64,000 nt of DNA from Watersipora subatra (lineage: Eukaryota; Bryozoa; Gymnolaemata; Cheilostomatida; Watersiporidae): assembly GCF_963576615.1 (NCBI RefSeq), contig NC_088711.1, forward strand, positions 33,530,121 to 33,594,120, in the 5' to 3' direction. Both the position numbers and the translations under genes were made by a program. This document shows positions 18,950 to 51,940 of this stretch, piece after piece. The notes beneath the pieces are model-generated. The model worked only from the letters and a program-made list of their open reading frames with translations. It did no database searches and was not told the DNA's origin. Numbering within the stretch: the first letter of the stretch is position 1; each line of letters begins with the position of its first letter.

Positions 18950-21900
18950 GTTAGTGTTACACTGTGTTTACCTAATATGTCAGCACCATATTGAAATGAT
19001 TCTACAGCAAAACTCGTAACTATTTTTCAAACAATTTTATTGCCAATGTTCTTGCTCATCGTGCCTAAGAATTGCTAACTCGTTCCACCACTTTAATGTC
19101 TATTTATCAGGAGTTCACATTCAGTTATGAGCTATAAAAATAACATTTGCTGTTGGTAGGATTTTAGACTAAACACTGCATGGCAAGAATTCGTTGTTGC
19201 CTCGACTATCGGAGCAGCGGCGTTGTTCGCGCTAGTCGGAGGATACCTGAATGACAAGGCTGGTCGTAAACCAGTCATACTGCTCGCCAGCATTGTCTTC
19301 ACTTCAGGTTCTCTCTGCATGGCCTTTGCTGATGATAAGTACATCTTGGTAATTGGTCGAACCATCTTGGGAACAGGAATAGGTAAGCACTAGCAATATA
19401 CATACAATGGCTTTGAGTTCAGCATGAAATGATCATTTGCACTAACATGAAGCTTACTGGGGCCAAATTTGAAGGAGCAGTTCTCTTTGATCTGATTGAA
19501 TGTTCAGTCTCTTGACCATTATTTAGACTAACCAGAACTGCATGAGTCGCAGCTGTGCAGAGGACGGCTAACTAATAGCAAAGATGGCGCTATAGAAATT
19601 GCCTTGTAATAAAAGGTTTAAGATGAAGTCTATGATAAGTAACTCCTAGTGAGTACTAAGTGCAGAGGGTGGCCAACTCCTAGTGAGTACAAAGTGCAGA
19701 ATCTGTATCTATAGTCACTGAAACATGTGGAAAGATTGGAAGCATTTTTTGCTCGATTTCATTCTCATATATCTTTAGGTTTGGGGCGTTCCCTTATGCC
19801 CCTTATACAGAAAATTTCATATGAAGTACATAAACCTTTAATGTTGATTGCCCTTTTAGTCGCCCTCATTGAGTTCAACCCAGATTTTTTGTGGAAGGAA
19901 TAGAATTGATCGACCAAGCAGTCAAAAATATTTTTCAATGTCAAGCAGCATTTGCTAAAATGAGCGTTTGCTCTGTTCAAGGATTCTCGAGGGATCCTAT
20001 TGAGGGTGTAGTCGTTACACGCATTTGCTAATGAATAAAAAGTGTTGAAAGACCATTGCCAACTCGTATCAAGTCCCGAAGGAAGTGGATTCAGTTGAGT
20101 CAATCGTCTTTGACAGACTTCCTATGACTGAGCCTCATAAAACATCATCTGTTACAGTGATAGAGCTACTCCATAGACATCACATCTTCATCTGCTATAA
20201 AACAGTGACATTAATATAGTTCTATGATGCTGTTATTTGTATTTACAAAGGCCAAACTCAAGCTGCTTCTCAAATAATGACTCATTTTTAAAAATAGTTT
20301 TGTTGTAACGTTGCCCGCCTCAAGTCTGTTGGATGTAGATGGTTCTTAAACACTTGTCTCCTGATGATACGTCTTATCCCACTTTGCCTTCCCACTGGCA
20401 CTACGATCAATACTGATAAGAAGGTCATTAGCAAAGCATTCCTTTAATAATCGCTAGACAATGACTTTTATCGGCAGTTATAATTTCTATATAGCTCTTA
20501 GCTAATATTTGATCTGCCAATTTTCCTTGACCATATTGAATGATGCCCAGTATTTTTGATGATCGTGTTCCAACAACATGTGAGGCAACAATGTGTTCCT
20601 CCATCAAGGTCATGCTAAGGGCATTGAAGTCCCACACAAATTCTGCTAATTAATTGTGTATATCTCAGATGATGTATTTCTGTATATTGTCTTAGGTCGG
20701 TCATGCTGGAGTTAGCTCCCATTTTTCAACTAGTGAAGTTCTATGTTTTGTCTCATTACACAGGTTTATCATCCATGACAGTGCCAATGTATATAGCAGA
20801 ATCTGCTCCAGCTAACATCAGAGGACGACTTGTCTCTGTGAACATTGCCATGGTCGCTGCGGGGCAGTTCATAGCCAACTGTGTTGCTGGTCTCTTCACC
20901 AGTTTCTCTCATGATGGATGGAGGTTAGGAGTTTATTTCCTGTAGTTTTGTGCTAATTAAAGTTGTAGAATAGTTGAAATATATGAATGAATTTCAGTTT
21001 CTACTGAGTGAATTTACCACCTAAAATCATCTGGTACTCTGACTGTACTTGTAAAGTTACTAAAAACAATATGTGCCAGATTGAAGTAAATGAACTCTTT
21101 TCTCCTCTTTTCAGAAATCACACATTTATCCTTCATGCATATTATAACTTTTTCTAATGATTGATTAGGTGAATTTGCCAATATCAATTTGTTGTTGCCA
21201 TATGCTGTTATCTAATGAGCTCTATTGGCTAATGTAAAAACCAATCTCCTACAATACAATTTGCTCATCTAAATATGAATGATTCACCTGCCTGTCAACC
21301 GCCATCGCCATTGTCGCAAGTCGTCTGATACCATAAATTACAAATCAGATCACTTTGACAGAAATCTGCTCTGGGAAAGGTTTTATACAGCGGGTTTCTT
21401 TACTTGCAAAAATAATAAAAATGTAATAAGTCAAGCAGTAGCAATACTGTACAAACACAAAAACAATGCCATTTCCGCAGCAATATTATATACTTGGAAC
21501 ATCTTTCTTCTATGGAAGAAGGCCTCAAAATATGGCTATTTAATTTCAGGTCTGTTTTTCATATAAAGATAAATAAGATGTGAAACAGACACCTGTATGT
21601 CTGAAAGTGTTTATAATACATCAGAGTTTTTACTATAATAAGAGCCATGTTCATCCATCCGTATGTCCAAAGTCATAGTTGGAAGTCAGGAAAAAGATTG
21701 CATCGTACAGGGTTCAAACTTGCATTATACATGTATATAATAGGTGACAAGTATCTATGATTGTGGAATGCATACACAATATGTAAAACAATTAAACTGA
21801 ATATGAAAAGTTCAAATGATATGCAAAAATCATGCTTTTCAAAGGGTCAATATTACTTATACTATTATTGCTATTAATATTACTCATAGTATTGTTGCAA

Positions 21901-31252: not shown

Positions 31253-31410
31253 TCAATCTGCCGATCTCTGGCGTGATTTATCTTTTACATACCAGCTGCC
31301 AGAAAACAAGGATTCCATTTCTTCCAGAGTTCGACCTTTGGTCTCGGGCAGGAAGAGAAAGAAAAAGATACAACCGACAACTCCGAACGAGGCATAAAGA
31401 TAAAAAGCAC
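31253..31410 (-). CDS. SLC2A13: SLC2A13-like (-) coding exon 11: TM12 and C-terminus
   Basis: Acceptor TTTCTTTCAG. Encodes [35 protein letters not shown] and a short basic tail ending RSAD, stop TGA at 31255-31253. Confidence 0.95.
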
Positions 31411-34400: not shown

Positions 34401-37400
34401 ATAAACCCACCTTGTCTAGTAATAGCCTCAGAGACTGAATGTATGTAAATCCACCTTGTCTAGCAATAACCTCGGAGAGTGAATGTATGTAAACCCACCT
34501 TGTCTAGTAATAGCCTCAGAGAGTGAATGTATGTAAACCCACCTTGTCTAGTAATAGCCTCAGAGAGTGAATGTATGTAAACCCACCTTGTCTAGTAATA
34601 GCCTCGGAGAGTGAAAGAAATGTCATGGATATAAGAAGGTTAAATGCCCAGTTAGTGAATGTTGCTAAAGCGTTTCCAAAGCCTCTGGCCCACAAAGGGT
34701 AAATTTCAGAGTTGATCGTCCATGGCATCGGCCCCATACCTACGGATAGTGAGGAAGAGTTTATATCTACAAACTACATGTATACTTTTATAAAGCCTTG
34801 TAATAAGCAAGCTACTAAATCTTTTTCATTCAGGCAATGAAAAGCGATAGAAAAATTTCAATGAGAACTTATACTATAATTCGCTAACCAATAAGAACAT
34901 GGCATGAAGGTGGATGCTAAACTCAGAACCTGCAAGAGATAAGAAGACATGCTGATAAATTTAACCAGTGCAGTCAACTTTATGCTAATACTCCACACTG
35001 TTTTCCTTATGATATAAGGGTTATCGACTATTTTTATACATACATGACTGCACACACAAAGCTACAACCTATTTCTACAATATAAAGCAGTTTCATGTGT
35101 AAGTTTAATTTGCAATTTCATGGAATGCTTCTCTGCCTATAATGTGGCAGCTCTTTGTTTCCATGACTACAAAGCAAAGGTTTTGGCTGATAGGACGGTT
35201 AGCTAATAAAATTATCTTGTGCTCTTTTGTATGTTGGACACTCCAATAGCACCCAACTGACAGCAGTCAATGACAACACATTGCTGGTGAATGCGTAAAG
35301 GGGCAAGTATTAGCGTAAAATTAATATGAGTAGCGTAAAATGCAATTATTAAACACAATAGATATATAGTGAAACCTCTACTTACGAAATTAATTCGTCC
35401 TGGAAAGTATTTTGTAAGTAGAAAGTTTCTTAAAGCATAACTGTTACAAACAGTTTCAAAATCATCTCAGTTTTTTATGAAAGGTAGATAAGCTATTTAA
35501 CAATACTTGAAGAGGATGCTACAGAATGTTTAATAGGCTGAACGCCGAGAAAAATGAGCTGAAAAAGCGCGATTATATCACAAGCTAGCGTTGTTATCAC
35601 GCTTTTTAGAGCTCATTTCTTCTTGGCGTTCAGCCTATGAAACATCCTGTAACACGATACAAGCAAAATTAAATAGCTTATCTACCTTTCAGAAAAGACA
35701 GAGATTATTTTGAAAGCTGAACTTAGAGAATAACGGGTTTTAAGACACCCATCTCTATAATTTTAGATCGGACTAAACATCCCCAACTTCCGTCCCTAAA
35801 AAGCTAGGCTACGTCACATATTTATGGGCGGGGCTTGTTGTGTCAATTGTGTTGTTTGCGACACCAATATTGAATTGCAGTAAAAAATCTTTCAAAAACA
35901 AAAAAGAGTTTGAAAGTTAGTGGACCAATCTTTATTTTGAGTACCAAATCAGAATCAGCGTGTTTGATTTACCTAGAAAAAACAATGAAAGCTGTTCATG
36001 GCAGTTATGCTCTAAGTATAAGTGGATTCTACTACATAAATGACCTATTTCATTCCAAGCCCCACGAAACTCGTGGATATAACATTTGTATAAATTATAA
36101 ATACATGTAATGGTTAAAACTAACAAATACATATTAGAAATATATTACTGCAAAGTAAATATAAAAGAACACATTGAAGGAAAAAGCAGAAAAATAACGA
36201 ATAAAAAACTACAAATAGCATGTTTGTTGACTTAAGGCATTGGCTATCTAGACGAGGCCAAGCGATGGCCATTGACAGTGGGAAGATGACAGTCAGAAGA
36301 GTTAAGAGGGGGAAGGGGGTGTTGTATTGATCTTGTTTTGGCAGTGGGAAGATGACAGTCAGAAGAGTTAAGAGGGGGAAGGGGGTGTTGTATTGATCTT
36401 GTTTTGGCAGTGGGAAGATGACAGTCAGAAGAGTTAAGAGGGGGAGAGGAAGGGGCCGTTGTATTGATCTTGTTTTGGCAGTGGGAAGATGACAGTCAGA
36501 AGAGTTAAGAGGGGGAGAGGAAGGGGGTGTTGTATTGATCTTGTTTTGGCAGTGGGAAGATGACAGTCAGAAGAGTTAAGAGGGGGAGAGGAAGGGGGTG
36601 TTGTATTGATCTTGTTTTGGCAGTGGGAAGATGACGGTCAGAAGAGTTAAGAGGGGGAAGGGGGTGTTGTATTGATCTTGTTTTGGCAGTGGGAAGATGA
36701 CAGTCAGAAGAGTTAAGAGGGGGAGAGGAAGGGGGTGTTGTATTGATCTTGTTTTGGCAGTGGGAAGATGACAGTCAGAAGAGTTAAGAGGGGGAGAGGA
36801 AGGGGGTGTTGTATTGATCTTGTTTTGGCAGTGGGAAGATGACGGTCAGAAGAGTTAAGAGGGGGAAGGGGGTGTTGTATTGATCTTGTTTTGGCAGTGG
36901 GAAGATGACGGTCAGAAAAGTCAAGAGGGGGAAGGAGGGGGGGATGTTGTAGTGATCTTGTTTTGGCAGTGGGAAGATGACGGTCAGAAGAGTTAAGAGG
37001 GGGAAGGGGGTGTTGTATTGATCTTGTTTTGGCAGTGGGAAGATGACAGTCAGAAGAGTTAAGAGGGGGAGAGGAAGGGGGTGTTGTATTGATCTTGTTT
37101 TGACAGTGGGAAGATGACAGTCAGAAGAGTTAAGAGGGGGAAGGGGGTGTTGTATTGATCTTGTTTTGGCAGTGGGAAGATGACAGTCAGAAGAGTTAAG
37201 AGGGGGAGAGGAAGGGGGTGTTGTATTGATCTTGTTTTGGCAGTGGGAAGATGACGGTCAGAAGAGTTAAGAGGGGGAAGGGGGTGTTGTATTGATCTTG
37301 TTTTGGCAGTGGGAAGATGACGGTCAGAAGAGTCAAGAGGGGGAAGGAGGGGGGGGATGTTGTAGTGATCTTGTTTTGGCAGTGGGAAGATGACGGTCAG

Positions 37401-40400
37401 AAGAGTCAAGAGGGGGAAGGGGAGGGGGTGTTGTATTGATCTTGTTTTGCTCAGAGTAAATGTTTTTACGAGCATAAGTAAAAAGATTTATATACTTTAT
37501 ATAAAAGATTTATAGCTTCGATCATATCAGATCGGTATCCGAATGGTCTGGTGATTTTAGAATCGGAGCACCTCTATGATATATGATAACTCAAAATTAT
37601 ACAACGAATGATGACAAAACACTTGTAGTCTACTGATTTTCGGTAACAAATGAAACAGTGAGATGCGTTGTAAGTCACACCCACGAGAGGCAAACGGGGT
37701 AAGATACCACTAAAAGTCTTTTGTATCTGAATACATCTTTCATAAGTCAAAGCAAGATTTCTACCAGAAGACTTTTCCTAGTTGAAACTTTAATATGTAG
37801 AGATTCCAGTAGTCCTACACCTGCAGTGCAAATGTGATTGACAAAAAGACACCATACAGAAGTAATAATCATACCTGGAGAAAAGGAGGCGAGATAAAAG
37901 ACCATGCCAAGAATTGCCATCCACGCATATGGGGTTGGGCAGTAGTCATACGCCCACGAGTAGCCTGAACTAGACATGTCAGAGCAGAGGCCACTAACAG
38001 AGGCAGTAAAGTGTTCGTCGCTTGAAAGGCAGGTAGAGTTGATCTTTTGAGTCAGGGGATCCTTGTTGAAGCAGAACCCACAGTTTTTATCTTCTATGCA
38101 TGCTGTGCATGTACTATGAAATATAGAGAAGTGCAAGAACACTAGCAATCTTTACTAGACGGCTGTGTGGGTGGCCGGCTACTCAATGCAGAATTGACAA
38201 GTACAATTTCTCAGCTAAAACTCACAAACCAAAAGGCTTAGTTGCCTTCTTTGTTCCAGTTCCAGAATTAAAACTAGAGAACCTGTACACCTATGTCATT
38301 CGTGCTGCACTGAATGACATGGATGTACAGGTTCTCTAGTTCCAGAGTTGAAACGAAAGAACCTGTACATCCATGTCATTCGTGCTGCACTGAATGAAAA
38401 CAGACCTAAACCTTTGTTCATCACAAAATCCATGTCGTTATTATCTCTAAACATAGTCATAAAGTATAACCTAATCACTAAAATACATAGGCAATACATC
38501 TATTGACTCCATGCATCTATTGACTCCATGCATCTATTGACTCCATGCATCTATTGACTCCATGCATGCAACAACTACAAATAATAGTGATTTTTCAAAG
38601 CTCTGATTCACGACACTTGAGACTAACAGTTCCGACAACAAAGTAGTAGTATTGACTTTTTGTGAACTGACAAATCATCTTCATGCTTTATATAAACAAC
38701 CAGCAAGATCGCAAAGCCAAAAGAAGCATGTCTGGACAAATCTTGCAAAATCTGTACGGCTCACAAAATTAACTTTTGCGGAGAGCAAGATCACCGAGAT
38801 GGATTGAGCAAGCATATCTTCTGACTACTTCATATTCTGATAAAATTAATCATCTGTTGAAACCGGCATACATTCTCCACCTAAATACACTCTCAAACAG
38901 GAAGTTCCACTCAGTACGCATATCAATTACTGCACAGATGTTCATTTTAACTTCAGGGGAGGCAAATCCTCAAATGTGGGACACTTCTACATTCCCTACC
39001 GGCATTTCACAAAGGTACACGTGACGAAATATTGAAACAATATCTATTATGTGCAATACGCAATAAAAATTCATTTAGTCCTATGAGTACCCATAAACTG
39101 GTAGTTATCTTCACACACCGCTTTCATTGAAGTATGACAGAGATATGGTAATTACTCTATCAAAGGCCTCGGAACAAATCTAAAGAACCCTTTAGCACGC
39201 ACTGAATGCATTTGTTATAAGGCAAGTGTTCAGTTATTATAGCCTTGAAAAATTAAAACATATATATAAATCTTGAGCCGTTGGCTTTTGCAGATGCTCT
39301 ACCGCACCACTGTCTATAGAACCTGGCCGACTTGGTTGTCGTGTACCGTCATGCATGCAAGTCAAGGCTAGAGTAAAATTGTTGTATTTATCTTGAAACT
39401 GAGGGATACGCGATGGGTATTCAAATGCTTGTATGTGTAATCGATCGTGTACTTCCTACTTATAGCGCAATCATCCTTAGCAATTGCAACCTTAGCTTAG
39501 AAATAGCAAATATCCTGCTACGGTGCACAATAGTTCATGAGGGGACTGGCTAAGGGCTCCCCTATCTATACAAGCAAGTAGCATTGATGCTAGTCCTGCT
39601 TGAAATTCTAAAGCTATCTGGCACAATTCTAACATAGAGTATCTGTATTAGCAGGCACTCAACACAAACAGATGTTGGTGGTTCATTCTTAAATCGTTTA
39701 CTTCTGATCAACAGACAATACTAACAGGTATAAATTTTGATAAAAAGTATTGCAATTTTAGCAGGGAAATAGCTTTTAAACGAAGTTTAAAAGTTAGAAT
39801 GACAAATGTTGTTATAAATATAAATCAATTTTCTGGCCAAAGACTTTTATTACCCGGGCAACGCCGGGTAGCACATCTATATCTATCTATATAAATGTGC
39901 GTGTCTGTCATTCGTATGTCCAGTTAAGGCGATAAAATACGCACGAACAAAACTGCTTTGCATTGGATTTGAACTTGGAACCACCAGTTTTGCAAACGGG
40001 CGAGCTAACCACTACGCAATGCGGCATTGTGCACATAGTTGTGCACATGGTTATTATACCTGCCAATCTTTAATGCCGTTAAAATAGCGCGCTTCAACCA
40101 GAACGCGTGAAGATCATGATTGCATGAGAGATCATGAACATGAGGCAAACTTTTTCCTAATACTGACTTCAGAGGGATGAACACAGCTGTTATTATAGTA
40201 AGGACTAGTACTCTGACAGGCCCGTGCGCCGTAAGAGATCATCATGTGTAATAACTATGTGCACAATTATTATTAGAAATGTGAGAGTGATCACGTAGCA
40301 CAGATGGTAGTGCGCTCGGTTGATAATCCAAATATCTGGGTTCGATTCCTGTGCGGTGAAATCTATTTTCCTAACAATCTTAGCATGGTATCGGATTGCA

Positions 40401-43400
40401 CAGGTAATAAAATAATTACCCAATGAATTTGAGAAACTTAAAAAGCCAACTTGATAATCGTAATAGTAGTAGTAACCAACAATATTTTTAAGCGCTTTAG
40501 GCATGCCTATTTTAACCAATGTAATGAGTATGGCCATAACTGTTCCATTGTATAGCGATGTAGCTGCTTGGCCTAGTGGATTAGGTCGCCTGTCTGCAAA
40601 CCTGGAAGCTTCGAGTTCAAATCCAGTGCAAACTGGATCTTTTGCTCCTAAAACTTCATCCCTATAACTGGACACACCAACAACAGACAAACACAGATTC
40701 ATATGCATATCTAGATTTAAACTAATTAAAGTTACTCAAATTAATTGAGCAAAGAAACTTAGGCAATTAAAAATAAATTTTCTAGACAAAAACTTTTTTT
40801 ATTACCCATGCAACGCCAGCATTCAGGTAGTCTTTGATAAAATTAGCATGCATATGCTACACTTGTTTCAACGAATGCTTGCAATGATGCAATAAAGCTG
40901 GCCAGCTTCAGAAAGTATTGGATACAGCGAGCGAATGGTGCAGATGAGAAGAGGTTTACCTAAACTGCGTCGAGCAAAGATCAGAAGTAAAGTCTGAAGG
41001 GAGGGTAACGTCAGGGGCTGTGCCAGCCTCTACTTGGAAGCCTATTCCCAGAAAGACAAGAGATATGGTTACACCTGCAAAAAGAAACAGATTTACTACA
41101 GAAGTAAAATTATAAAGGACTTGAGAAAGAAGACGACTTAGTTTGGTGAGGTATAAGATAAATCATAGATTAGACCAATGGTTCACTAAGGCTATTACCA
41201 CTCAGTAGTTTGGTGAGGTATAAGACAAATCATAGATTAGACCAATGGTTCACTAAGGCTATTACCACTCAGTAGTTTGGTGAGGTATAAGACAAATCAT
41301 AGATTAGACCAATGGTTCACTAAGGCTATTACCACTCAGTAGTTTGGTGAGGTATAAGACAAATCATAGATTAGACCAATGGTTCACTAAGGCTATTACC
41401 ACTCAGTAGTTTGGTGAGATATAAGATAAATCATAGATTAGACCAATGGTTCACTAAGGCTATTACCACTCAGTAGTTTGGTGAGGTATAAGACAAATCA
41501 TAGATTAGACCAATGGTTCACTAAGGCTATTACCACTCAGTAGTTTGGTGAGTTATAAGATAAATCATAGATTAGACCAATGGTTCACTAAGGCTATGTG
41601 TACTGATGGAGCACCTTAAAGAGCTGTGTGACAGCGATCAAGCAGCACATGTGCAAAAGTCAACAATCTACAGCTAGTAGAATCTTTTAGTTAGGCTGGT
41701 GGAAGCTGACTGACAGTGTTGGCGTACTATAAACTATTTATAAATGCTTCCAGATATAATCAGACACATAAAAAGCTAACGGTGACAAATCCTAAATAAG
41801 ATTGAGCCGAAAGATAAAACACAACTACAGTAGCTACCTTTTAATAATTGCGAAACTCAACAGTTCCGTTTTCTTTAAACATTTGGTGAAAGCAAATGTT
41901 TATTTCGTTCCAGTAAAAATAGGAACTTATGCTACAAACCAAGGAAGTGCTTCTCTTTGCTATTCCACATACAAACGACAAACATTTCATCTAATTGAGA
42001 AGCGAATTGACCAATCCAACAGAGTTAGACAGGAGTAGACAACTACTTATTTTGTAGGTAATTACAATCTTAAGGGCTGGCAGCTCAACAGAAAGCTACA
42101 GATTGCTGTGAGCGACAGACCTAACAGGCTTGAGAGAAAAAGCATTCTTCTGCCGATACGTTCAACAAGAGCGATGCCGACAAAGGTGAAGAGGAAGTTG
42201 ACCAGAGCAGTGATGGAGGCATACCATATGGCTTTACACGGATCCTGTACGCCAGCCATGCTTATTATAGTTGCGCTGTAGTACCTGTAGAAAAGGGAGT
42301 TATTACAGCGCAGCTGACCAACAAAGTAAGATTGTGACAACTATATCATCAATTGTAGACTTCTACAGATGTTTTGCATCTTACTGCAATTTCCCATTTA
42401 CCGTAAACACGAGTCCCCTTTATCATATTCAAATCAATGTTAAATTAAAAACTGATTTTTGAGATAAAACAATTCTAACGAAACATTCTCAAAATACACC
42501 ACTCACAATCGGTTCGACCGCTGCATGAAACCAGCATCCACTGGCTATTTACAAATAAAATGATACTAACACAAGATTGACTTATTAATGCTGTTAATAT
42601 AGTAGAACCTATAGAAGAAGGTCAAGGTCCGTATACTGGAACGTACATTCATAGGATAGTTAATACTGAGGAGAACACTGATGAAATAAATAAAAAAGTT
42701 TAGCAGTGAACTTCAGGGCGTGTGATGCATTATAACTGCACCACAACATCGAAGTGCAGTACACAGTCATTTCACAGGGCATTACAATTTATAATGCACA
42801 GTAGCACATGCAACTGCGCTCCTACTGCAAATTGTCTACTGCCATCTACTTCTACGACGCATTACCTGAAACCCAGCAGTTCATGCATACTGCAAATGCA
42901 AATGCACATTCTTGAAACCTTGAAACTTAAAACTGTATGCGTACTGCATCTGCGCATTAGTATGAAGTTAATACCGTGGAACAGCTATCACTGCTGGTTC
43001 TATAAACGTCTGTACTGTATTATATACAATCAGATGTTATGTTCAGCAAGTTCATGAACTTGGGCTCCAACTCCCCATATCATTTCGGAATAGACAGTCC
43101 GGCATTATCACCATTTCGATGAATTGGGGTCTTTATATTCTTATTAAGATTACGTATTAAAACAATAATAGATATTAATTTAAAATATTAATATCTATTA
43201 ATATTATTATCTTTAATTTAAATTAAAGATATTAATTTAAAATTTAATTGCCCACTCACACTAAAGGTTGAGCAGCGTTCATAATCTAACATTAGTGTTG
43301 TGGTTAAATGAAAGTCAACTCAATATTTGATTATGTGATGAGTTTTCATGGAAAAGTGCTGTGCCTGTATTTAGAATGTAATGCAAAAGTTCCTACTACA

Positions 43401-46400
43401 TTAAGCACTACGAAATGTGCACTAGCAACACTCCCATCGTAACCAGCATGGCATCCTGTGCAGTAGGTAATATAGCCACTGCACCAATACTGCTTACTGC
43501 GCGTTAGAAAATATTTGTACTGTGTGTATCTGCATGCTGCGCAGTAGTGATAGCATGTAATGCACGTAATACCGCATAGCTGTGACATGTTCGCTACTGA
43601 TAACACAAGTTCATAAATTTCCTGGAAGAATTTAATGCAACTGTAATGTATTTTACACTTGGAGATTAGTGAGTATTTATCAATGCCCACTTATATTGTT
43701 TTGTAATAGACACAACCCTTGTAGATAAGGTAGAACACGAACTATATAGCCTTACATGACTGTGTTGATGCCTGTGATTTGTTGGAAGAGCTGAAGCATG
43801 CAGCCAATAATAAGAGCTCTTCTAACTGGTAGACTGTCCCACACCTTTTTGCCAATAAACTGGTTGCCCAGCACCTCTTTACATCTGGTCTCTTCATCAC
43901 ACGCCGCCTTGATGCCATTGTATTCATCATTGACGTCTAGAGTACCTCTAAGCCTTTGTAGCACCTTCATATAAACATGTTTAACAGTAAGATCTTCAGT
44001 TCAAAGTTTAGTTCTCATGCGCCTCCTAAAGCCTGTGTGACATTGCATAATTTGTGTGACAGAACATGCAATGTCACATATTCATGAGAACAGTGCAAGG
44101 AATGCTGCTCAATGATGAAAGTATTCCAACTCTCTCCAAGTCTCCACAAATGCTGGCCTTGTCAGACTCCTAGGATACTTTGTGCGCGTCAATTGGTCCA
44201 TCTGTACTAGTGGTACACCTGACTAGACCAGTATATTAGGTGGTCAAGGATACCTGACTAGACCACTATATTAGGTGATCAAGGATACCTGACTAGACCA
44301 GTATATTAGGTGATCAAGGATACCTGACTAGACCAGTATATTAGGTGATCAAGGATACCTGACTAGACCACTATATTAGGTGATCAAGGATACCTGACTA
44401 GACCAGTATATTAGGTGATCAAGGATACCTGACTAGACCAGTATATATTAGGTGATCAAGGATACCTGACTAGACCACTATATTAGGTGATCAAGGATAC
44501 CTGACTAGACCACTATATTAGGTGATCAAGGATACCTGACTAGACCAGTATATTAGGTGATCAAGGATACCTGACTAGACCAGTATATATTAGGTGATCA
44601 AGGATACCTGACTAGACCACTATATTAGGTGATCAAGGATACCCGACTATACCACTATATTAGGTGATCAAGGATACCTACAGCCAAGATAATGGTTTAC
44701 TCACCCGAATAGCCTCTTGGTCTTTCCCTTGACTCACCAGCCACCTCGGACTCTCTGGCATGAAGATGAAGCCAAAGAACTGTACAATAGCTGGGGTAGC
44801 GGCTAATCCCAGCATCCATCTACCAAATGATGCACCAATTCAATACTGTTGCGTTCTAACAAGCGGTCACGCTATTCATTATGCACTATTAAAGTTTCTC
44901 TCTCTTGCAGTTGGTGACTTCGACAATGTTCTATGGTTTGAATAATATTGGTGAGTTTTATACAACACTGCTCTTGGCTGAATTAAATAAATAGTTCATT
45001 TGGTCAACTAAGAGTATATCAAATGTTATCCATCGACGGTTGAAGAAAGTGACAGCTAACAATAATGGAAGTATATAATAATGAAGTATATAATAAATAC
45101 AATAATGGTTAAACAATTTACAGCAGAGGATTAAGGATACGAACAAATTACTTAATTATGCACAAACATACGACCAGCTGATTATGTTTAGGTGATGCAA
45201 AAAACAACAAATCAAGTTTACTTGAAAATGAATCACCAAAGAGCTATACAGCCGCCAGTTGAATGCAATGAGTCATAATTCACACCCAAAGAGGAACAAT
45301 CCTGGCTGTAAAGAGTCGATAGATAGAGCAGGTATCTTATCACTTAGAGTAGGACAGTAAAAATAAAACGGTCACTTATCGACAACTTATAATTATACTT
45401 TTACAAACTTTCGGTAGAATGGCCTTGTATTAAATCACCATTGCATTAGAATCTTACCATTTAGACTTATGTTAGCTCAAGTCAAGTTGTTGTTTGTACT
45501 ATTATTAGGGTAATTTGCAAAGGACTGCCGAGGCAGACATGTATGCGACTCAATTGACAATTGATATTAACAATCCAATGTCAACTGCTCCAAAATGGCA
45601 CTCTGTGAGAAGTTGCACACTCATGACACCCCATGACAGGTTACACACCTCCAGCCACCCACGGTGCGACAGAATAAGCCATCGACGACACTTGATGTGA
45701 ACTGGCCGGCAGTGATGCACAGGTTGATGAGTGTGACAAGCATACCTCGCAGAGTGGGAGGGCTGCACTCACTCACATAAACGGGTACAGTGCATGAAGA
45801 GAGGCCTGCAGAAAAAGCAATCAGCAGTAGAAAATAGCAGAATGTCTCTATGAGAGAGCATTCCCACCGAGAAGACAATTTCTAAAATATACTGAACAGC
45901 TACATGAACCTAATGAAAATGAACCTCCTTGTTTAGTATAATAAGCCCCTTACCCTTTAGGAGGGAAAATTTGAATGAATTTTTCAAAATTTGCTACCCT
46001 TTGTGTGTATTCAAGACAATGTTTGAGATTGCGAATTTCCTAGCAACCAATCACCTGAGCTGTAAAATCGTGAAAATATAATTTAAATACCGTATTCTAA
46101 AACCGTTCTACATAATTCAGAAATTGTCTCCTTACAATTAACTTGATCAATCATGTTTAGGAGTTGTCTAGCTCTACCGTAGATGGCTAAACCCCAATTT
46201 ATGAGTGACGCAAGAGAGGAAGCGGCGTATGGACTGACTCACCGCCAGCCACCACTGAGTGGACAGAAGGCACCAGAGACTAGTAGAGAGACAAACATCC
46301 CTCCAGATATGAAAGCCTGGTTGAGAGAGACAAGTGGTCCACGGAGGTGCGGTGGAGTGGCCTCCGCAATATAAATAGGCACTGTTACACTGGCCATGCC

Positions 46401-49400
46401 TAACAACACAGCGTTTTTACCGTACACCATAAAAACATCTCAAACGTCTTTAAATGGAATTGACTTTAAAAATCTGCAAAATTTTGTTTAGACAGCATAT
46501 TATCTATTACTTGTTGTTAACTCCCAACTAATTTCAATTGGAATGGAAATGACCATTAGAAATCATTGTAAAAAACAGAAGATCGAGTCACATGACCGAG
46601 TAACAGCTGGCAACAGCCGAGGCTGTTTTTAAGGCTACATATAGCATATTGTTTAAGCTCTGCCTGTATATAGAAATATCAAGTTTAAAAAACACTTTAA
46701 AAATATTCAAGCAAATTTTAATTTGAGCTTTCTTCATCTCACTGGTGAAAAGTGGATCTTAATTTAGCTAGCAGGATGAGCTAAGTGAGCGTTTGTGAGA
46801 GGCCATGTCCCCTCAAGTACAATGGTGCAATGAGCTCATGATAGACAAGAGCCATGGTATCTGCCTGTTGTGCCGTACAAAAGCTTCTTATATCCAAAGT
46901 TTAAAATGCCTGTGCCAGAAACAGTTTTAGCACAGAGTCTGTGCTGTGTGTCTGTGCCACAGACACATGCAGAAATTGACGTATGATAGGCAGACCACAT
47001 GTTCATTATTAAACGATGATAAGAAAGACGACGATCAATAGATTAAAGCAAGTAGCTTGATCGTCAGAGAATCCCAGATCAAAAGAAAAAAGTTGAAATC
47101 CTCGATCCCATTATATTCTGCGCTGTTCATATCATGTCAATAATTATTATTCGTTTAATATTTATTATTGATTATTTAGAATTAAACATCAAAATAATGA
47201 TGCCATTTTGTAATTGTGAGTTGCCGTCTTTGGAATCAGCCAGTTGAGGCATGGTCTCGTTGTTTGGATTCCAGAGGTACTGGTAAATTTGGTATGACAC
47301 CAAAAACAAGACGCAAGCGAGAGACCATTTAGCGAGTACAGGGCTAGTGCTTTGCACTTGCTGGGAATCGCGAGTCACACATCAATGAAGGTGATTGTAT
47401 TTTTCAATGGGCCTATCAAGTCTGAGGAGATAGACAATGATCAGATACAGAATAGATATGAACAACAAATGCAATTGAAGTTCTGCGCACACCGTATCAC
47501 ATACTTGTGTTTATACATGAATGTATATTCGCAGAGTAATAGGAGATAATCTCTCACCTATGCCAATGCCAACTATAAACCGACCAATCAGTAGAGTTTT
47601 TGTGCTATTGGCCGCAGCCAACACAATGGCACCAATAGTAAATACAACGCTTGCTATGAGAGTCGTCGGTTTTCGACCAACTTTGTCATTAAGGATCCCT
47701 CCAACAATGGCAAATATAGCCGCCGCTCCAACTAAAAACATGTACGGAATATTGAGAATGAAATAAAACTCCGCCTGTCTATCAATTATCAACAATGATA
47801 GTTTCAAGATATTGATATGTGACACACTAAGGTACGTTCACTGCCTTTGTAGACCTCATGTAATAGAGAATGTTAACCAATCAGGACACTGAGTTATTAC
47901 CTCTAATATAGTTATCTCAACTCGGCATCTCCAGTTATAAACAAAGCCATCTAATTGAGTGCTGCAAGCAATACCTCACAAGTCGTTGTCCTGGCACCAT
48001 AGGATAAATGGTAATAACCTTTTCTTAACACCTATTTTACCTGCGGCTTATATATTCAGCCACTGTTTACCTCAATGCCTAAAAGCCCATAATAAACTTA
48101 TACTGTTGTTTTTCTCTTCTCCACTCGATAGCTAGTTCTCAATGTTTCTCAATCCTATACATAGTGTGAAATCAAACCTAATGCCAAGTCTGATAGGGAC
48201 ATCAATTATAAACAGCTGGTGTCCAGCGTGCACCTTTGAAAATGAGAAATATAAACCTAACCCGACTTACTAGTGATGCTAACAAACAGCTCTGTGTCCA
48301 CCGTAGTGAACTCAAACAGCTTTGCAATCGGTAGACTCGCACCAGCGACTACTCCAGTGTCGTAGCCAAACAGAAATCCTCCGATAGCAGAGAGAAATGC
48401 CAGAATAAAGACATAGCACGGGGTACGAGGAGCATTTGATGGCCGTATTGCATTCTATAAAAGAATGTATGTTATGAACTCGCCAGTCATGTCCAGTTAA
48501 TAAAAGAAGGAGATCGCTCATGGTGAAAAAGAACAATGTAAAATTGATCCCTCAATAAATCATGAACTAAATGTCAAAAGGTTATAAATTAGGCGGTGTA
48601 GATTATGCTTTAATATGTTCTTTCATTCCACAGGTTAATGCATTGACAAGCTTACAGCATGTCTACTCAATTATTACACTTTCACGATTAAACTTGGCTT
48701 CCATAGTGATGCAAGGAAATAAGAAATACTCATGAAAAAAATTTAACCTACTTGTGTTTTGATGTATGCATACCAATAAGATGACAATTCTAAACAAGTA
48801 AAATGGGTCCCACCATATGACATTAATTTGTCCTGATGTTCTTGGGATCGCAAGGCGGAAATTTCGTATGGAGGGATATAAGAACCTATAGCAAAGCAAA
48901 CCCACGGTAACAACATCAAAGATTTTATTTACCGTACATACTGTACATATTAAAAATTAGTAACAAAATAGTATAGTAACCTTAACAACTATAGTAACCT
49001 ATTCAGTGGCTATGACCTGCAATAAAATGTAACATTATTATGCATAGTAATGGTGCTGTACATGTACACATAGTAATGGTGCTGTACATGTACACATAGT
49101 AATGGTGCTGTACATGTACACATAGTAATGGTGCTGTACATGTACACATAGTAATGGTGCTGTGCATGTACACATAGTAATGGTGCTGTACATGTACACA
49201 TAGTAATGGTGCTGTACATGTACACATAGTAATGGTGCTGTACATGTACACATAGTAATGGTGCTGTACATGTACACGCTGTATGGAGTTCTCACATTTG
49301 AGAACACTGTATGTAGTAGCGAACCACGGTGGTTAGAGAGACTTGGACAGCAGCGCGTTTGGTAAACTAGACTTTTGTGATGCTAAGTAACATAAATTTC

Positions 49401-49919
49401 TAATTTAACTTAAATGAATTTAGCTTACTAAACACACACACACTTAAAGACAAATTTTAATATTTACGATTTTACTCAACTTAACTTTAATTTTGTCATC
49501 GTTTTAATTTCTTATTACCCGTTTCCGGTTTGGCACTTTATGCCTCGCTTTTACTATAACTTTTAGCCGACGTTATTAAAACTTTTTTCAAACTAATTCG
49601 GTCTTGCTTGTCAAAACATTTTTCTAAAAAAATTTGAATTAGGAGAGAAATGTTGATGTCGCATGGTGAGGAAAATATTGTAACGGGGAAGGGAAGGGGG
49701 GGCCGAAAAAACTTTGTTCCACATCGTTAGGTGAAAAAACCGTAAGACAGGGACGCTATAACCCGGGGTCCGCTGTACAGCAAGTGAAAAAATGATAGGA
49801 CAACTCTCATAAGTATGACTAATACTAACGCTAGGATCATCTTCTATACTCATACTCTGTTCATTCTCTAACAAAGATGCGTCTTCCGCACAGATTCCGT
49901 TAGACATAGTTGCTCCCAT
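31253..49919 (-). CDS. SLC2A13: SLC2A13/HMIT-like sugar:H+ symporter, minus-strand copy with alternative exon 4
   Basis: A second HMIT-like 12-TM MFS transporter. Exons in order: 49919-49830, 48454-48271, 47731-47558, exon 4a 46399-46243 or 4b 45805-45649, 44819-44705, 43964-43756, 42284-42121, 41074-40960, 38113-37875, 34739-34587, 31410-31253. With either exon 4 the protein is 585 aa. Motifs: [15 protein letters not shown] with the TM1 Asp; [22 protein letters not shown] with the TM4 Arg; [18 protein letters not shown] in TM7; VERIGRRM; Cys-rich TM9-TM10 loop [48 protein letters not shown]. The C-terminal tail is far shorter than in the plus-strand paralog. Compared with that gene it has an extra intron in the TM6-TM7 loop (EAIR|VLQRL) and lacks the one next to the 18-bp minisatellite. 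At least one upstream untranslated exon is likely. Confidence 0.92.
32336..32780. repeat. TG-rich microsatellite and 56-bp minisatellite
   Basis: (TG)n-like tract at 32336-32425. From about 32525, roughly four 56-bp units with TCAGTGTATGTACATGTCTG and GTATATATAGGTGTGAG. Both lie in intron 10 of the minus-strand transporter. Confidence 0.88.
33315..34612 (-). repeat. 44-bp minisatellite derived from the exon 10/intron 10 junction
   Basis: About 29 units. On the minus strand each reads TCACTCTCTGAGGCTATTAC then TAGACAAG|GTGGGTTTACATACA. The 34587-34612 copy is the real exon end; the others carry copies of the exon end and donor. Several distinguishable unit types recur in the same order (around 33330, 33680 and 33860), a higher-order repeat. 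Confidence 0.93.
34587..34739 (-). CDS. SLC2A13: SLC2A13-like (-) coding exon 10: TM10-TM11
   Basis: Acceptor ATCCGTAG, donor G|GTGGGT. Encodes [18 protein letters not shown] and [12 protein letters not shown]. The exon end is the first unit of a 44-bp minisatellite extending about 1.3 kb into the intron. Confidence 0.94.
35368..35760. mobile_element. Foldback/MITE remnant
   Basis: Starts with AGTGAAACCTCTACTTACGAA, like the other TIR families here. Inside, 35475-35570 and 35580-35690 are inverted copies (AGGCTGAACGCC...GGCGTTCAGCCT; AGATAAGCTATTT...AAATAGCTTATCT). The matching right terminus is not clear. Confidence 0.55.
36286..37450. repeat. 66/72-bp G-rich minisatellite
   Basis: About 17 units starting GTGGGAAGATGACAGTCAGA and containing GAGGGGGAAGGGGGTG and TATTGATCTTGTTTTGGCA; longer units add GAGAGGA. 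The plus strand is strongly G-rich, so it is the template strand of the minus transporter (intron 9). The minus-strand open frame at 37059-37475 is only the repeat. Confidence 0.93.
37875..38113 (-). CDS. SLC2A13: SLC2A13-like (-) coding exon 9: Cys-rich loop
   Basis: Acceptor TTTCATAG, donor G|GTATGA. Encodes [18 protein letters not shown], then [14 protein letters not shown] and FYLASFSPG. Confidence 0.94.
38274..38339. repeat. 28-bp-stem hairpin in transporter (-) intron 8
   Basis: CTAGAGAACCTGTACAC... pairs with ...GTACAGGTTCTCTAG over 28 bp with two mismatches and a 10-nt loop (GTGCTGCACT). A direct repeat of the right half plus loop follows at about 38350-38400. Confidence 0.8.
38505..38572. 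repeat. 17-bp repeat (CATCTATTGACTCCATG)
   Basis: Four tandem units in intron 8 of the minus-strand transporter. Confidence 0.85.
39775..39882 (+). mobile_element. HINE/Helitron-like 3' end
   Basis: GAAGTTTAAAAGTTAGAATG through TTATTACCCGGGCAACGCCGGGTA. The palindromic CCCGGGCAACGCCGGG tail is the usual right end of these elements. Nearly the same sequence, lacking the palindrome, is at 1505-1600. Confidence 0.6.
39884..40816 (+). mobile_element. HINE/Helitron-like element with tRNA-like modules
   Basis: Starts TCTATCTATATAAATGTGCG and TGTCTGTCATTCGTATGTCC, ends AAACTTTTTTATTACCCATG then CAACGCC. Contains tRNA-like pieces at about 39930-40030 (reverse), 40290-40365 (GTAGCACAGATGGTAGTGC, GGGTTCGATTCC) and 40550-40635 (TGGCCTAGTGG, GAGTTCAAATCC). 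Shares blocks with 2786-3458. Confidence 0.55.
40960..41074 (-). CDS. SLC2A13: SLC2A13-like (-) coding exon 8: TM9
   Basis: Acceptor TTTTTGCAG, donor AG|GTAAAC. Encodes [17 protein letters not shown] and the loop start SDLCSTQF. Confidence 0.92.
41140..41598. repeat. 67-bp minisatellite
   Basis: Almost seven near-identical 67-bp units (TTTGGTGAGGTATAAGACAA...GGTTCACTAAGGCTATTACC), in intron 7 of the minus-strand transporter, ending about 65 bp from exon 8. Confidence 0.95.
42121..42284 (-). CDS. SLC2A13: SLC2A13-like (-) coding exon 7: TM7 end-TM8
   Basis: Acceptor TTTTCTACAG, donor G|GTCTGT. Encodes [20 protein letters not shown] and [17 protein letters not shown]. 164 nt, as in the paralog. 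Confidence 0.94.
42720..43600. repeat. Unclassified CTACTGC-rich element with partial inverted symmetry
   Basis: Both sides are enriched in ACTGC/GCAGT words (GCAACTGCGCTCCTACTGC left; GCTGCGCAGTAGTGATAGCATG right) around an AT-only palindromic centre (43140-43250, AATTTAAATTAAAG). It looks like a degenerate inverted-repeat element; no ends or duplication found. Confidence 0.35.
43756..43964 (-). CDS. SLC2A13: SLC2A13-like (-) coding exon 6: cytosolic loop and TM7
   Basis: Acceptor TATATGAAG is pyrimidine-poor but phase and protein fit ([17 protein letters not shown]). Continues through [16 protein letters not shown] to [10 protein letters not shown]. Donor AT|GTAAGG. Confidence 0.9.
44215..44685. 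repeat. 35-bp minisatellite
   Basis: About 13 units of AAGGATACCTGACTAGACCA plus GTATATTAGGTGATC, 20 bp inside the intron 5 donor of the minus-strand transporter. On the transcribed strand most units contain CAG|GTATCC. Confidence 0.94.
44705..44819 (-). CDS. SLC2A13: SLC2A13-like (-) coding exon 5: TM6
   Basis: Acceptor TTTGGTAG, donor CGG|GTGAGT, phase 0. Encodes [17 protein letters not shown] and [20 protein letters not shown]. Confidence 0.93.
45649..45805 (-). CDS. SLC2A13: SLC2A13-like (-) exon 4b (second alternative TM4-TM5 exon)
   Basis: 157 nt, acceptor TTTTTCTGCAG with a strong pyrimidine tract, donor AG|GTGTGT. Encodes [20 protein letters not shown] and [15 protein letters not shown], ending VGGWR. 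TM5 has Asn at the Gln168 position and Gln at the Gln175 position, and SSVVDGLF, closer to ordinary HMIT. Exclusive with 4a by phase. Confidence 0.9.
46243..46399 (-). CDS. SLC2A13: SLC2A13-like (-) exon 4a (first alternative TM4-TM5 exon)
   Basis: 157 nt, acceptor TTGTTAG, donor CG|GTGAGT. Encodes [20 protein letters not shown] and [15 protein letters not shown], ending GGWR across the junction. TM5 carries Gln at the XylE Gln168/GLUT1 Gln161 position and Met where XylE has Gln175. Phase 1 in, phase 2 out, the same as 4b. Confidence 0.9.
47558..47731 (-). CDS. SLC2A13: SLC2A13-like (-) coding exon 3: TM2-TM4
   Basis: Acceptor TGTTTTTAG, donor G|GTGAGA, phase 1. Encodes [19 protein letters not shown] and [13 protein letters not shown]. 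The plus-strand copy covers this segment with exon 2, whose start lies one intron earlier. Confidence 0.92.
48271..48454 (-). CDS. SLC2A13: SLC2A13-like (-) coding exon 2: TM1
   Basis: Acceptor TTTTATAG, donor A|GTAAGT, phase 1. Encodes [16 protein letters not shown] and [19 protein letters not shown]. Confidence 0.9.
48800..49773 (+). mobile_element. Tigger-like element copy (CAGTGC family) with internal minisatellite
   Basis: The left part resembles 8091-8360 (ACATTTAAAAATTAG/AACAAAATAGTAT-like block, then GACCTGCAATAAAATGT). The right part (49545-49640) resembles 8445-8560. The end CCCGGGGTCCGCTG|TA is a diverged inverted form of CAGTGCACCCTCAGG. The left terminus is diverged. It lies in intron 1 of the minus-strand transporter. 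Confidence 0.55.
49038..49276. repeat. 26-bp minisatellite (CATAGTAATGGTGCTGTACATGTACA)
   Basis: About nine units, within the Tigger-like copy. Open frames in all three minus frames are artefacts of the repeat. Confidence 0.95.
49830..49919 (-). CDS. SLC2A13: SLC2A13-like (-) coding exon 1: N-terminus
   Basis: Preceded by acceptor TTACTTTTCAG. Encodes [20 protein letters not shown] then [10 protein letters not shown], a polar acidic N-terminus like that of HMIT. Donor AGC|GTTAGT, phase 0. MSNG five codons in is an alternative start. Confidence 0.7.
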
Positions 49920-49920
49920 T

Positions 49921-51940
49921 CTGAAAAGTAAAATGATAAATGTCATACATTCTTCAACATGTTGTAAACGCTATCATATATGTAGATCAGAATGCTTGGT
50001 AAAGCAGATGTGATGAGTTGTCTTACACTGCGGCAGAAGGCCTATTAATAGAATATTTTCGATAGGACACGGAACTATAGCAAGAAATGATCAATATTAA
50101 CAAAGCGCCAAGAGGTCCCAAGGAACATAGTTGTTAAAAAGTGCCTGCTAGTTGGTCCTTGGGTTAGTACATTCCTCAATTATATGTGTTAGTAATTATC
50201 ATCATTATACACCATTATTCCATGGCTGATTGCAATTAAAGTGTTCAAAGGACATTGTGTTAGCTTTCTACATGACAAAAACACCTCCTGTGATGCCCTC
50301 ACCATGTCACAGCAGCTAGGTTTAGACACAAATACTTGCCAAATACAGCAATCGACAACTATTGGTGCTTAGGAACCTAAAACAGCATTCAACCTCGTTT
50401 TAGAACTAATTTAACACTTGAAGTCTTCTGTAACTAGTCACTTAGCTTTAGCATTCCTACAAACAATATTATTGCTGCGCAGTTATATGATTGTAGACAA
50501 GATTACGAGTGAACACTTACTGACTTACACTTACTGACTTACCATATATTGCCAGCGTATACATAAAATTTATATATTGCACAAGTCCTTATTTCTAAAA
50601 TAAGGTCTGAAACATATTTTGTGTAAATACTCAAGTCAATATCTTTGAATACAAAAAATATGATAAAACTCATTAATTCAAAAACATGCATACCAGCAAA
50701 AAAAAAAAAAAAATATCGTAACTGAAAATATTAGTTCGAGAATAGCTGACATTAAGGCTCAAATAATTTTATTCCCAACAGTTTTACAACTAAATTACAT
50801 AGATTGAGACTAACTAGTACTCCTTGTATTGACTACCTTCATATCTTTAATGGGTGGGTTAATATTACATGATACTTAAATTCATAATTTAAGTTTTTAT
50901 TGTACAATTCATTTAGGTGCTTCTTAAAACTTTACACTTTGTATTCAGTATACAAGTCACAAACAAATTGAAATTCTAAATCAGCGGAAAATTGTTTAGG
51001 CGATTGGTGTTATTTATGCTTGCTGCTAGCAGCGACAATGCTACTTATTATCAAGGCTTATGTTTGTCAACATTCACTCCAATATGTGCTCATTCACACA
51101 TCGATATTAATAAATCCCATTTTGTCATTGTCTGTCTGTATGTCCGTGTAAATGTCATGCACCTCCAAATTTTTCAGTCAAAATCAAAAGCTAGCGCAGT
51201 CCCCAATCTTTCTCTCACTCGCTTTCTCCCTCACACCCTCTGTGCATGGAGCAAATATATAGTATTTATAGCAAGCACAGTTTTATATGCAATAAACATA
51301 ACAAAAGCTATACCCACTTTAAAGTAGTATGTTAGAGCATTAGCAGCCTGCTTGCGCTTAAAACGCATCCTTTAAATCTATTCCGTCGATAAAAACTGAC
51401 ATGATTTAAGAGTTCAGCAATTTTTTAGAATATAAAGCAAATACTAATTGATTTAAATTAATACAACGCCAACGATTTACTTTGTTTATAGAACCACGTT
51501 CCATGATGCTTCCTCATACGTAACACTAAAAGCCTTTAATGCATTTTAAATTCATATAAATTGAAGCATGTCCAGCAAGATAATGGCTATAAGAGCAGAA
51601 TACCAAATAGAAAAACATTTACAACAAAGAATAACTGTTCTTGATAATCTTACTACTGCATGTCAGTAAAATAAACTGTTATTGTATGTCTTGAATCTTG
51701 ATACATAAAACAATTGTTAATATGCTTGGCCATCATAATAATATGATGAAACCTTTATAAGAACTAACCTTGCGCTCCTCCGTTGGTTCCTTTATATTAT
51801 AACAAATAAGAAACGCAGTTACTATGAAAAACCTTTATGTTAATCAAGCATATGAACAATGCCCAAAGTGAAAACAACATCCGTTTCCTTTGCAAGCATC
51901 TTGTCAACTACCTAATACGAATATGTACACTGTAACTCAC
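49921..51940. other. Upstream intron/UTR region of the minus-strand transporter
   Basis: AT-rich, with an A-run at 50700-50713 and a possible HINE-like start (GTCTGTCTGTATGTCCGTG, about 51131). A minus-strand exon-like piece GAACCAACGGAGGAGCGCAAG|GTTAGT (about 51769-51788) could be an untranslated exon. No coding sequence recognised. Confidence 0.35.

Follow-up and report, generated by a model that had tools for sequence, protein, structure and literature searches.

The closest described system to the transporter analysed here is SLC2A13 (HMIT, GLUT13), a H+/myo-inositol symporter of which a cysteine-rich extracellular loop between TM9 and TM10 is a hallmark. Alternative exons are known from other transporters, among them SLC25A3 and SLC39A14, which do not have the sugar porter fold, and NKCC2 (SLC12A1), the exon 4 variants of which are named A, B and F. 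According to the excerpts of the respective papers, the NKCC2 variants encode the second transmembrane domain, which contributes to Cl- binding, and have different ion affinities (PMC6873903), and SLC25A3 and SLC39A14 carry mutually exclusive exons (PMC5740500). The gene described below shares with NKCC2 the position of exon variants in a transmembrane segment, but fold and substrate are different and NKCC2 has three variants; with SLC25A3 and SLC39A14 it has mutually exclusive exons in common, but the families are unrelated. No mutually exclusive exons were found for SLC2A13, HMIT or SLC2A in the literature searched, which lay mostly outside subscription journals, in agreement with the initial annotation that no such pair had been described for SLC2A13. 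Papers on glucose transporters or Drosophila sugar transporters named no such exon in their titles and the beginnings of their abstracts. Unlike SLC2A13, the gene described here has two alternative TM4-TM5 exons, and what appears to be new is that their predicted swap alters both TM5 positions that align with sugar-site residues of XylE, a change on which the initial annotation had not commented.

The window, i.e., the whole stretch of 64,000 nucleotides that was analysed, is part of contig 4, and genome searches were performed over the 784-Mb assembly of 239 contigs. Two SLC2A13/HMIT-like genes were identified in the window in convergent orientation: a plus-strand paralog, with its first homologous exon at ∼18.8 kb and its last at ∼30.1 kb, and a minus-strand gene at 49919-31253. 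The two paralogs are placed tail to tail, with their stop codons ∼1.1 kb apart. Eleven exon positions bordered by GT-AG make up the minus-strand gene, and position 4 is filled twice, by exons 4a and 4b (Table 1). When a 334-residue query from the minus-strand protein was searched against the genome, 13 matches were obtained (25 candidates scored), of which seven fell in the minus-strand gene, five in the plus-strand gene and one in a GLUT-like gene on contig 9. A broader Pfam search of the genome also returned places on contigs 1, 9 and 11 (9 of 95 candidates scored), so that the genome holds further sugar transporters. Compared with the paralog, exon 4 is less conserved (48% identity for 4a and 46% for 4b) than the neighbouring exons 3 (60%) and 5 (70%); exon 2 is 45.9% identical over the matched part.

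Table 1. Positions of the exons of the minus-strand transporter gene and of exon 4 of its plus-strand paralog in the window.
Feature	Position	Strand	Description
Putative exon 1	49830..49919	-	ends ...DDPS; phase 0 out, donor GTTAGT; in frame with exon 2; start and donor inferred
Exon 2	48271..48454	-	TM1 region
Exon 3	47558..47731	-	through first part of TM4, GRK loop
Exon 4a	46243..46399	-	remaining TM4 and TM5; 157 nt, phase 1/2; Gln and Met at XylE 168 and 175
Exon 4b	45649..45805	-	homologous alternative to 4a; 157 nt, phase 1/2; Asn and Gln at XylE 168 and 175
Exon 5	44705..44819	-	TM6 with PESPRW
Exon 6	43756..43964	-	central loop and TM7 (FQQITGIN)
Exon 7	42121..42284	-	from after TM7 to GRR loop
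Exon 8	40960..41074	-	TM9 and beginning of TM9-TM10 loop
Exon 9	37875..38113	-	cysteine-rich loop and TM10
Exon 10	34587..34739	-	from GPMPW; 3' end and donor repeated in minisatellite
Exon 11	31253..31410	-	last TM (LPETKGR) and stop
Single exon 4 of paralog	20764..20923	+	160 nt, phase 1/2; Ile and Gln at XylE 168 and 175

The description of the minus-strand gene as HMIT-like could be upheld, as it encodes a complete SLC2A13/HMIT-like sugar porter in a frame of 585 amino acids. Both isoforms belong to the sugar porter family of the major facilitator superfamily, with scores of 344 (4a) and 344.6 bits (4b) in TIGR00879 (cut-off 237.8), a model that does not tell the isoforms apart. Pfam Sugar_tr was matched by the peptides of exon 4 as well as by the C-terminal portion of the protein. 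The cysteine-rich TM9-TM10 loop is present in exons 8-9 of the minus-strand gene and also in the paralog. Both exon 4 peptides were also compared with the presumed corresponding segment of human HMIT, to which 31 and 32 of the 53 residues, respectively, are identical. Class III GLUTs are characterized in the excerpt of PMC12347752 by PESPR in TM6, GRR in loops 2 and 8, PETKGR in TM12, a Trp after GPxxxP in TM10 and a TM7 without QLS. The minus-strand protein has PESPRW, GRR in loop 8, PETKGR and a TM7 (FQQITGIN) without QLS, but loop 2 reads GRK instead of GRR, and in TM10 (GMGPMPW) the Trp is kept and Met replaces the first Pro of GPxxxP. In a comparison restricted to these motifs, leaving aside the Arg/Glu of loops 4 and 10, the protein appears to have most, not all, of the listed class III motifs, in which it would resemble SLC2A13. 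Equivalents of XylE D27 and R133 were found in the alignment to XylE, and H+-coupled transport of myo-inositol is a candidate activity of the protein. Among the best 60 of 61 PDB matches to the 4a isoform, no entry was named member 13 or HMIT.

The coordinates and the common length of exons 4a and 4b were confirmed, and the features that the initial annotation had described for the pair all held: entry in phase 1 and exit in phase 2 for both exons, splice sites intact with AG and GT bordering each of them, and the motif TVPxYx..PPxLRG...GGWR in both 53-residue peptides. It had also been claimed that inclusion of both exons, or of neither, breaks the frame. Indeed, either exon alone left an open frame with the ten other exons, giving a predicted protein of 585 amino acids with one terminal stop when the start codon and the exon 1 donor were chosen as in Table 1, and each of the other two combinations led to an early stop. 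With 4a and 4b together, the stop lies 34 nt into 4b and 120 nt upstream of the 4b-5 junction; with neither exon, translation would end 14 nt after the start of exon 5, with 98 nt left before the 5-6 junction. Nonsense-mediated decay usually follows a rule of 50-55 nt from the junction, and both stops lie beyond this distance. Joint inclusion is therefore predicted to be non-productive. As neighbouring internal exons of 157 nt each, with the same phases (1/2) and 27 of 53 residues identical, 4a and 4b show the sequence-level features expected of a mutually exclusive cluster. In a human survey, as excerpted, 377 of 629 such clusters (60%) had lengths indivisible by three, and 57 clusters (9%) may depend on a steric block (PMC5740500); by these proportions, exclusivity based on the reading frame would be ordinary for such clusters.

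Exons 4a and 4b are old homologues, identical at 27 of 53 amino acids and 83 of 157 nucleotides, and 4a retrieved 4b within the window by tblastn with E = 1.3e-15. Each peptide alone was recognized by Pfam Sugar_tr (4a, E = 2.2e-10, 40.5 bits; 4b, E = 8.1e-12, 45.2 bits), as was that of the paralog exon (E = 4.4e-13). Genome searches with the 4a peptide and with the 4b peptide returned 4a, 4b and the paralog exon only (seven candidates scored each), apart from one extra match to the 4b peptide at chance level (E = 0.49). An assembly or allele duplication was rejected as the origin of the pair: the sole same-strand match in the 400-nt flanks of both exons was 9 nt long, which argues that the duplication is neither recent nor an assembly artefact. 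On the opposite strand, the flanks share a match of 24 nt (83%, E = 0.019) and shorter ones. The pairwise amino acid identities (4a/4b 51%, 4a/paralog 48%, 4b/paralog 46%) are too even for the order of the exon and gene duplications to be read from them. That the plus-strand paralog has a single exon at this position was corroborated, and no second copy turned up in the two introns flanking it when 4a, 4b and the paralog exon served as queries in a tblastn with permissive settings.

The pair could also be left over from a gene that was duplicated in tandem, with one of the exons coming from a second, decayed copy of the transporter. The second SLC2A13-like gene in the window demonstrates that the locus does duplicate, but exons 2, 3 and 5-11 were found to be single in the gene by a permissive tblastn with 14 exon peptides (exon 1 excluded), except that the nine residues at the end of exon 10 are found again in a minisatellite. 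Besides the pair itself, no match in the interval between exons 3 and 5 was better than E = 0.30, so that decayed exon remnants of a tandem gene are represented by chance-level tblastn matches at most, and the phases and length of 4a and 4b still match each other. This origin is regarded as highly improbable.

Comparison of 4a and 4b by the NG86 method gave a dN of 0.565 and a dS of 1.591. Neutral evolution to the observed divergence was simulated 4000 times from each exon (8000 runs in total). Fully neutral runs kept at most 22 and 23 of 52 residues, compared with 26 of 52 observed, and 970 and 722 of the 4000 runs, respectively, were free of stops. When half of the divergence was neutral, at least 27 residues were kept in 3500 and 3519 of the 4000 runs, and a late relaxation of one exon is thus compatible with the simulations. 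Over 47 codons, unique amino acid changes numbered 5 in 4a, 5 in 4b and 6 in the paralog exon. Unique nucleotide differences at the first, second and third codon positions were 9, 5 and 4 in 4a, 6, 10 and 12 in 4b, and 10, 3 and 8 in the paralog exon, and positions differing in all three exons were mostly third positions (5, 2 and 15); the 4a-only differences have no third-position excess. A set of 80 prokaryotic relatives conserves 22 positions in this segment; of these, 17 keep the family residue in 4a, 17 in 4b and 15 in the paralog exon. Neither 4a nor 4b is plainly a decaying copy.

Splice sites in the interval from exon 3 to exon 5 (167 GTs and 129 AGs) were scored with an approximate metazoan frequency table. 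The donors of 4a and 4b ranked first and third among the GTs. The acceptor of 4b was the highest of all AGs with a score of 11.2, and that of 4a was weak at -0.3, a score equalled or exceeded by 62 of the 129 AGs (4a counted). Constitutive acceptors can be as weak as that of 4a (exon 6, -0.6; paralog exon 5, -2.1), and that of exon 5 scored 2.4. A strong acceptor at 4b and a weak one at 4a may fit one default and one regulated exon. They also bear on the view that only one exon, probably 4b, is used and that 4a is a relic, or rarely spliced, and on its way to being lost. This view is favoured by the weak acceptor of 4a, by the codon-position pattern of the 4a-only differences, by the late relaxation that the simulations allow and by the Sugar_tr score of 4a, which is below that of 4b; but 4a has no in-frame stop and is equal in length to 4b, its donor is the best in the interval, and it equals 4b in conserved positions and in unique amino acid changes (15 and 6, respectively, in the paralog exon). 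Use of a single exon is considered unlikely. The exon pair is real, old and frame-locked, and on the evidence of the sequence its members are very likely mutually exclusive.

Exons 4a and 4b would then be tandem-duplicated, mutually exclusive alternatives in a two-isoform SLC2A13/HMIT-like transporter, with exclusivity presumably arising from the frame shift, nonsense-mediated decay and a regulated choice. As the 437-nt intron between them would permit 4a-4b splicing, exclusivity probably does not come from a steric block. A steric block by a distant branch point was likewise rejected, since the distance from the acceptor to the nearest upstream AG is ∼40 nt in 4b and ∼39 nt in 4a, which makes ordinary branch points likely. 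Exon 4b, with the stronger acceptor, may be the default, and 4a, with the weak acceptor, may require an activator. Docker/selector pairing between the introns was tested with 20 shuffles each, which is a weak test, and found no support: the longest exact complements were 10, 9 and 10 nt, compared with shuffle means of 9.4, 9.25 and 10.5. A search of positions 44000-50000 with Rfam gave nothing at the gathering score.

By alignment, exon 4 spans approximately residues 141-200 of E. coli XylE, which would correspond to the last part of TM4, the loop that follows and TM5. XylE and bacterial GlcP are homologous proteins with an aligned TM5 site, and 4a resembles GlcP in this segment, but both are single-form bacterial proteins made without splicing. 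The two TM5 positions aligned with XylE Q168 and Q175 both differ between 4a and 4b (Table 1). At the first position, Gln is present in GlcP, STP6 and the contig 9 GLUT, and at the second, all three have Ile. Human HMIT presumably has Thr and Gln, so that exon 4b would share its Gln at 175. Exon 4a would depart from HMIT at both sites, with a Gln of the glucose-porter type at 168 and no HMIT-type Gln at 175. The position of XylE L297 is Met and constitutive in both isoforms. Among 80 prokaryotic relatives the residue pair was Gln/Ile in 78, Asn/Ile in one and Gln/Met in one; these were the best 80 of 322 confirmed, found with patterns from the 4a isoform, the 4b isoform, the paralog and GlcP and ranked by the 4a isoform, and are thus biased towards GlcP-like and 4a-like proteins. 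In the same 4a-leaning set, 4a was nearer than 4b to 63 of the 80 relatives, with 7 ties, and mean identities were 0.453 and 0.423. Scores for the 4a and 4b isoforms were 207.7 and 195.2 bits with the XylE model and 239.1 and 233.8 bits with the GlcP model, all below the cut-offs. With 26 of the 53 residues different, chance alone would make any two chosen positions both differ in about one case out of four. Judged by these alignments, 4a is near the glucose-porter pattern at both sites and 4b nearer to the pattern of the paralog and, presumably, of HMIT.

Q169 of PfHT1 is presumably the equivalent of XylE Q168. In the excerpt of PMC13095657, this PfHT1 residue forms a bond with the ring oxygen in a sugar analogue, and XylE Q175 in TM5, where GLUTs have Ile, hydrogen-bonds the C6-OH of glucose. 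The same excerpt describes that XylE with Q175I by itself did not transport glucose and that L297F was also needed; the double mutant transported glucose with an efficiency almost equal to that of wild-type xylose transport (PMC13095657). In the excerpt of PMC8784342, a value of about 10% is given for the double mutant. Because the swapped exon holds TM5 and both sugar-site positions change, the isoforms would be expected to differ functionally, whether in affinity, in turnover or in the choice of substrate. An inositol/HMIT-type carrier would be expected from the 4b form, and one nearer to hexose-type porters from the 4a form; a change in affinity or turnover would be just as probable as a switch of substrate. 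That one gene makes two transporters by splicing, an inositol-type 4b form and a hexose-type 4a form with different substrate sites, is a doubtful, if possible, reading.

Both exons might instead be used with the switch serving regulation, localization, stability or the control of output through decay after double inclusion, and not substrate choice. In the excerpts available, mutually exclusive exons are said to modulate and not considerably alter protein function (PMC5740500), and substrate preference is often set outside the binding site (PMC13095657); against such a role stands the content of the exon, with TM5 and changes at both aligned sugar-site positions. This alternative is plausible but falls short of being probable. 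The best explanation is probably frame-enforced, mutually exclusive splicing of 4a and 4b which would retune substrate choice or kinetics. Its splicing part is well supported by the reading frames, and the functional switch is a hypothesis drawn from the aligned residues.

If both isoforms are made, splicing would switch the sugar-site residues of an inositol/sugar transporter, and the two would form a native matched pair, 26 residues in one exon apart, of which two are sugar-site positions. The determinants of inositol versus hexose recognition in the family would then be directly testable. The natural exon swap would cover the TM5 position, Q175, that was mutated in XylE to study glucose transport, and the prediction is unusually testable because the swapped exon carries the TM5 sugar-site positions.

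Tandem repeats were observed at several exon ends of the two genes. Two minisatellites cover the 3' end of an exon together with its 5' splice site, so that the donor is repeated in the units: one at 33318-34615 on the minus strand, in which GACAAG|GT occurs 29 times at exon 10 of the minus-strand gene, and one at 28263-28798 on the plus strand, in which a 40-bp unit is present in 13.4 copies at the exon of the plus-strand gene that corresponds to exon 9. No array overlapped the mapped acceptors of the minus-strand gene, those of the plus-strand gene being partly mapped. An 18-bp array of 8.8 copies (22512-22670, plus strand) is located near the end of the plus-strand exon encoding EEYEGIKA, and a 35-bp array (44217-44679, minus strand) begins ∼25 bp downstream of the donor of exon 5 in the minus-strand gene.
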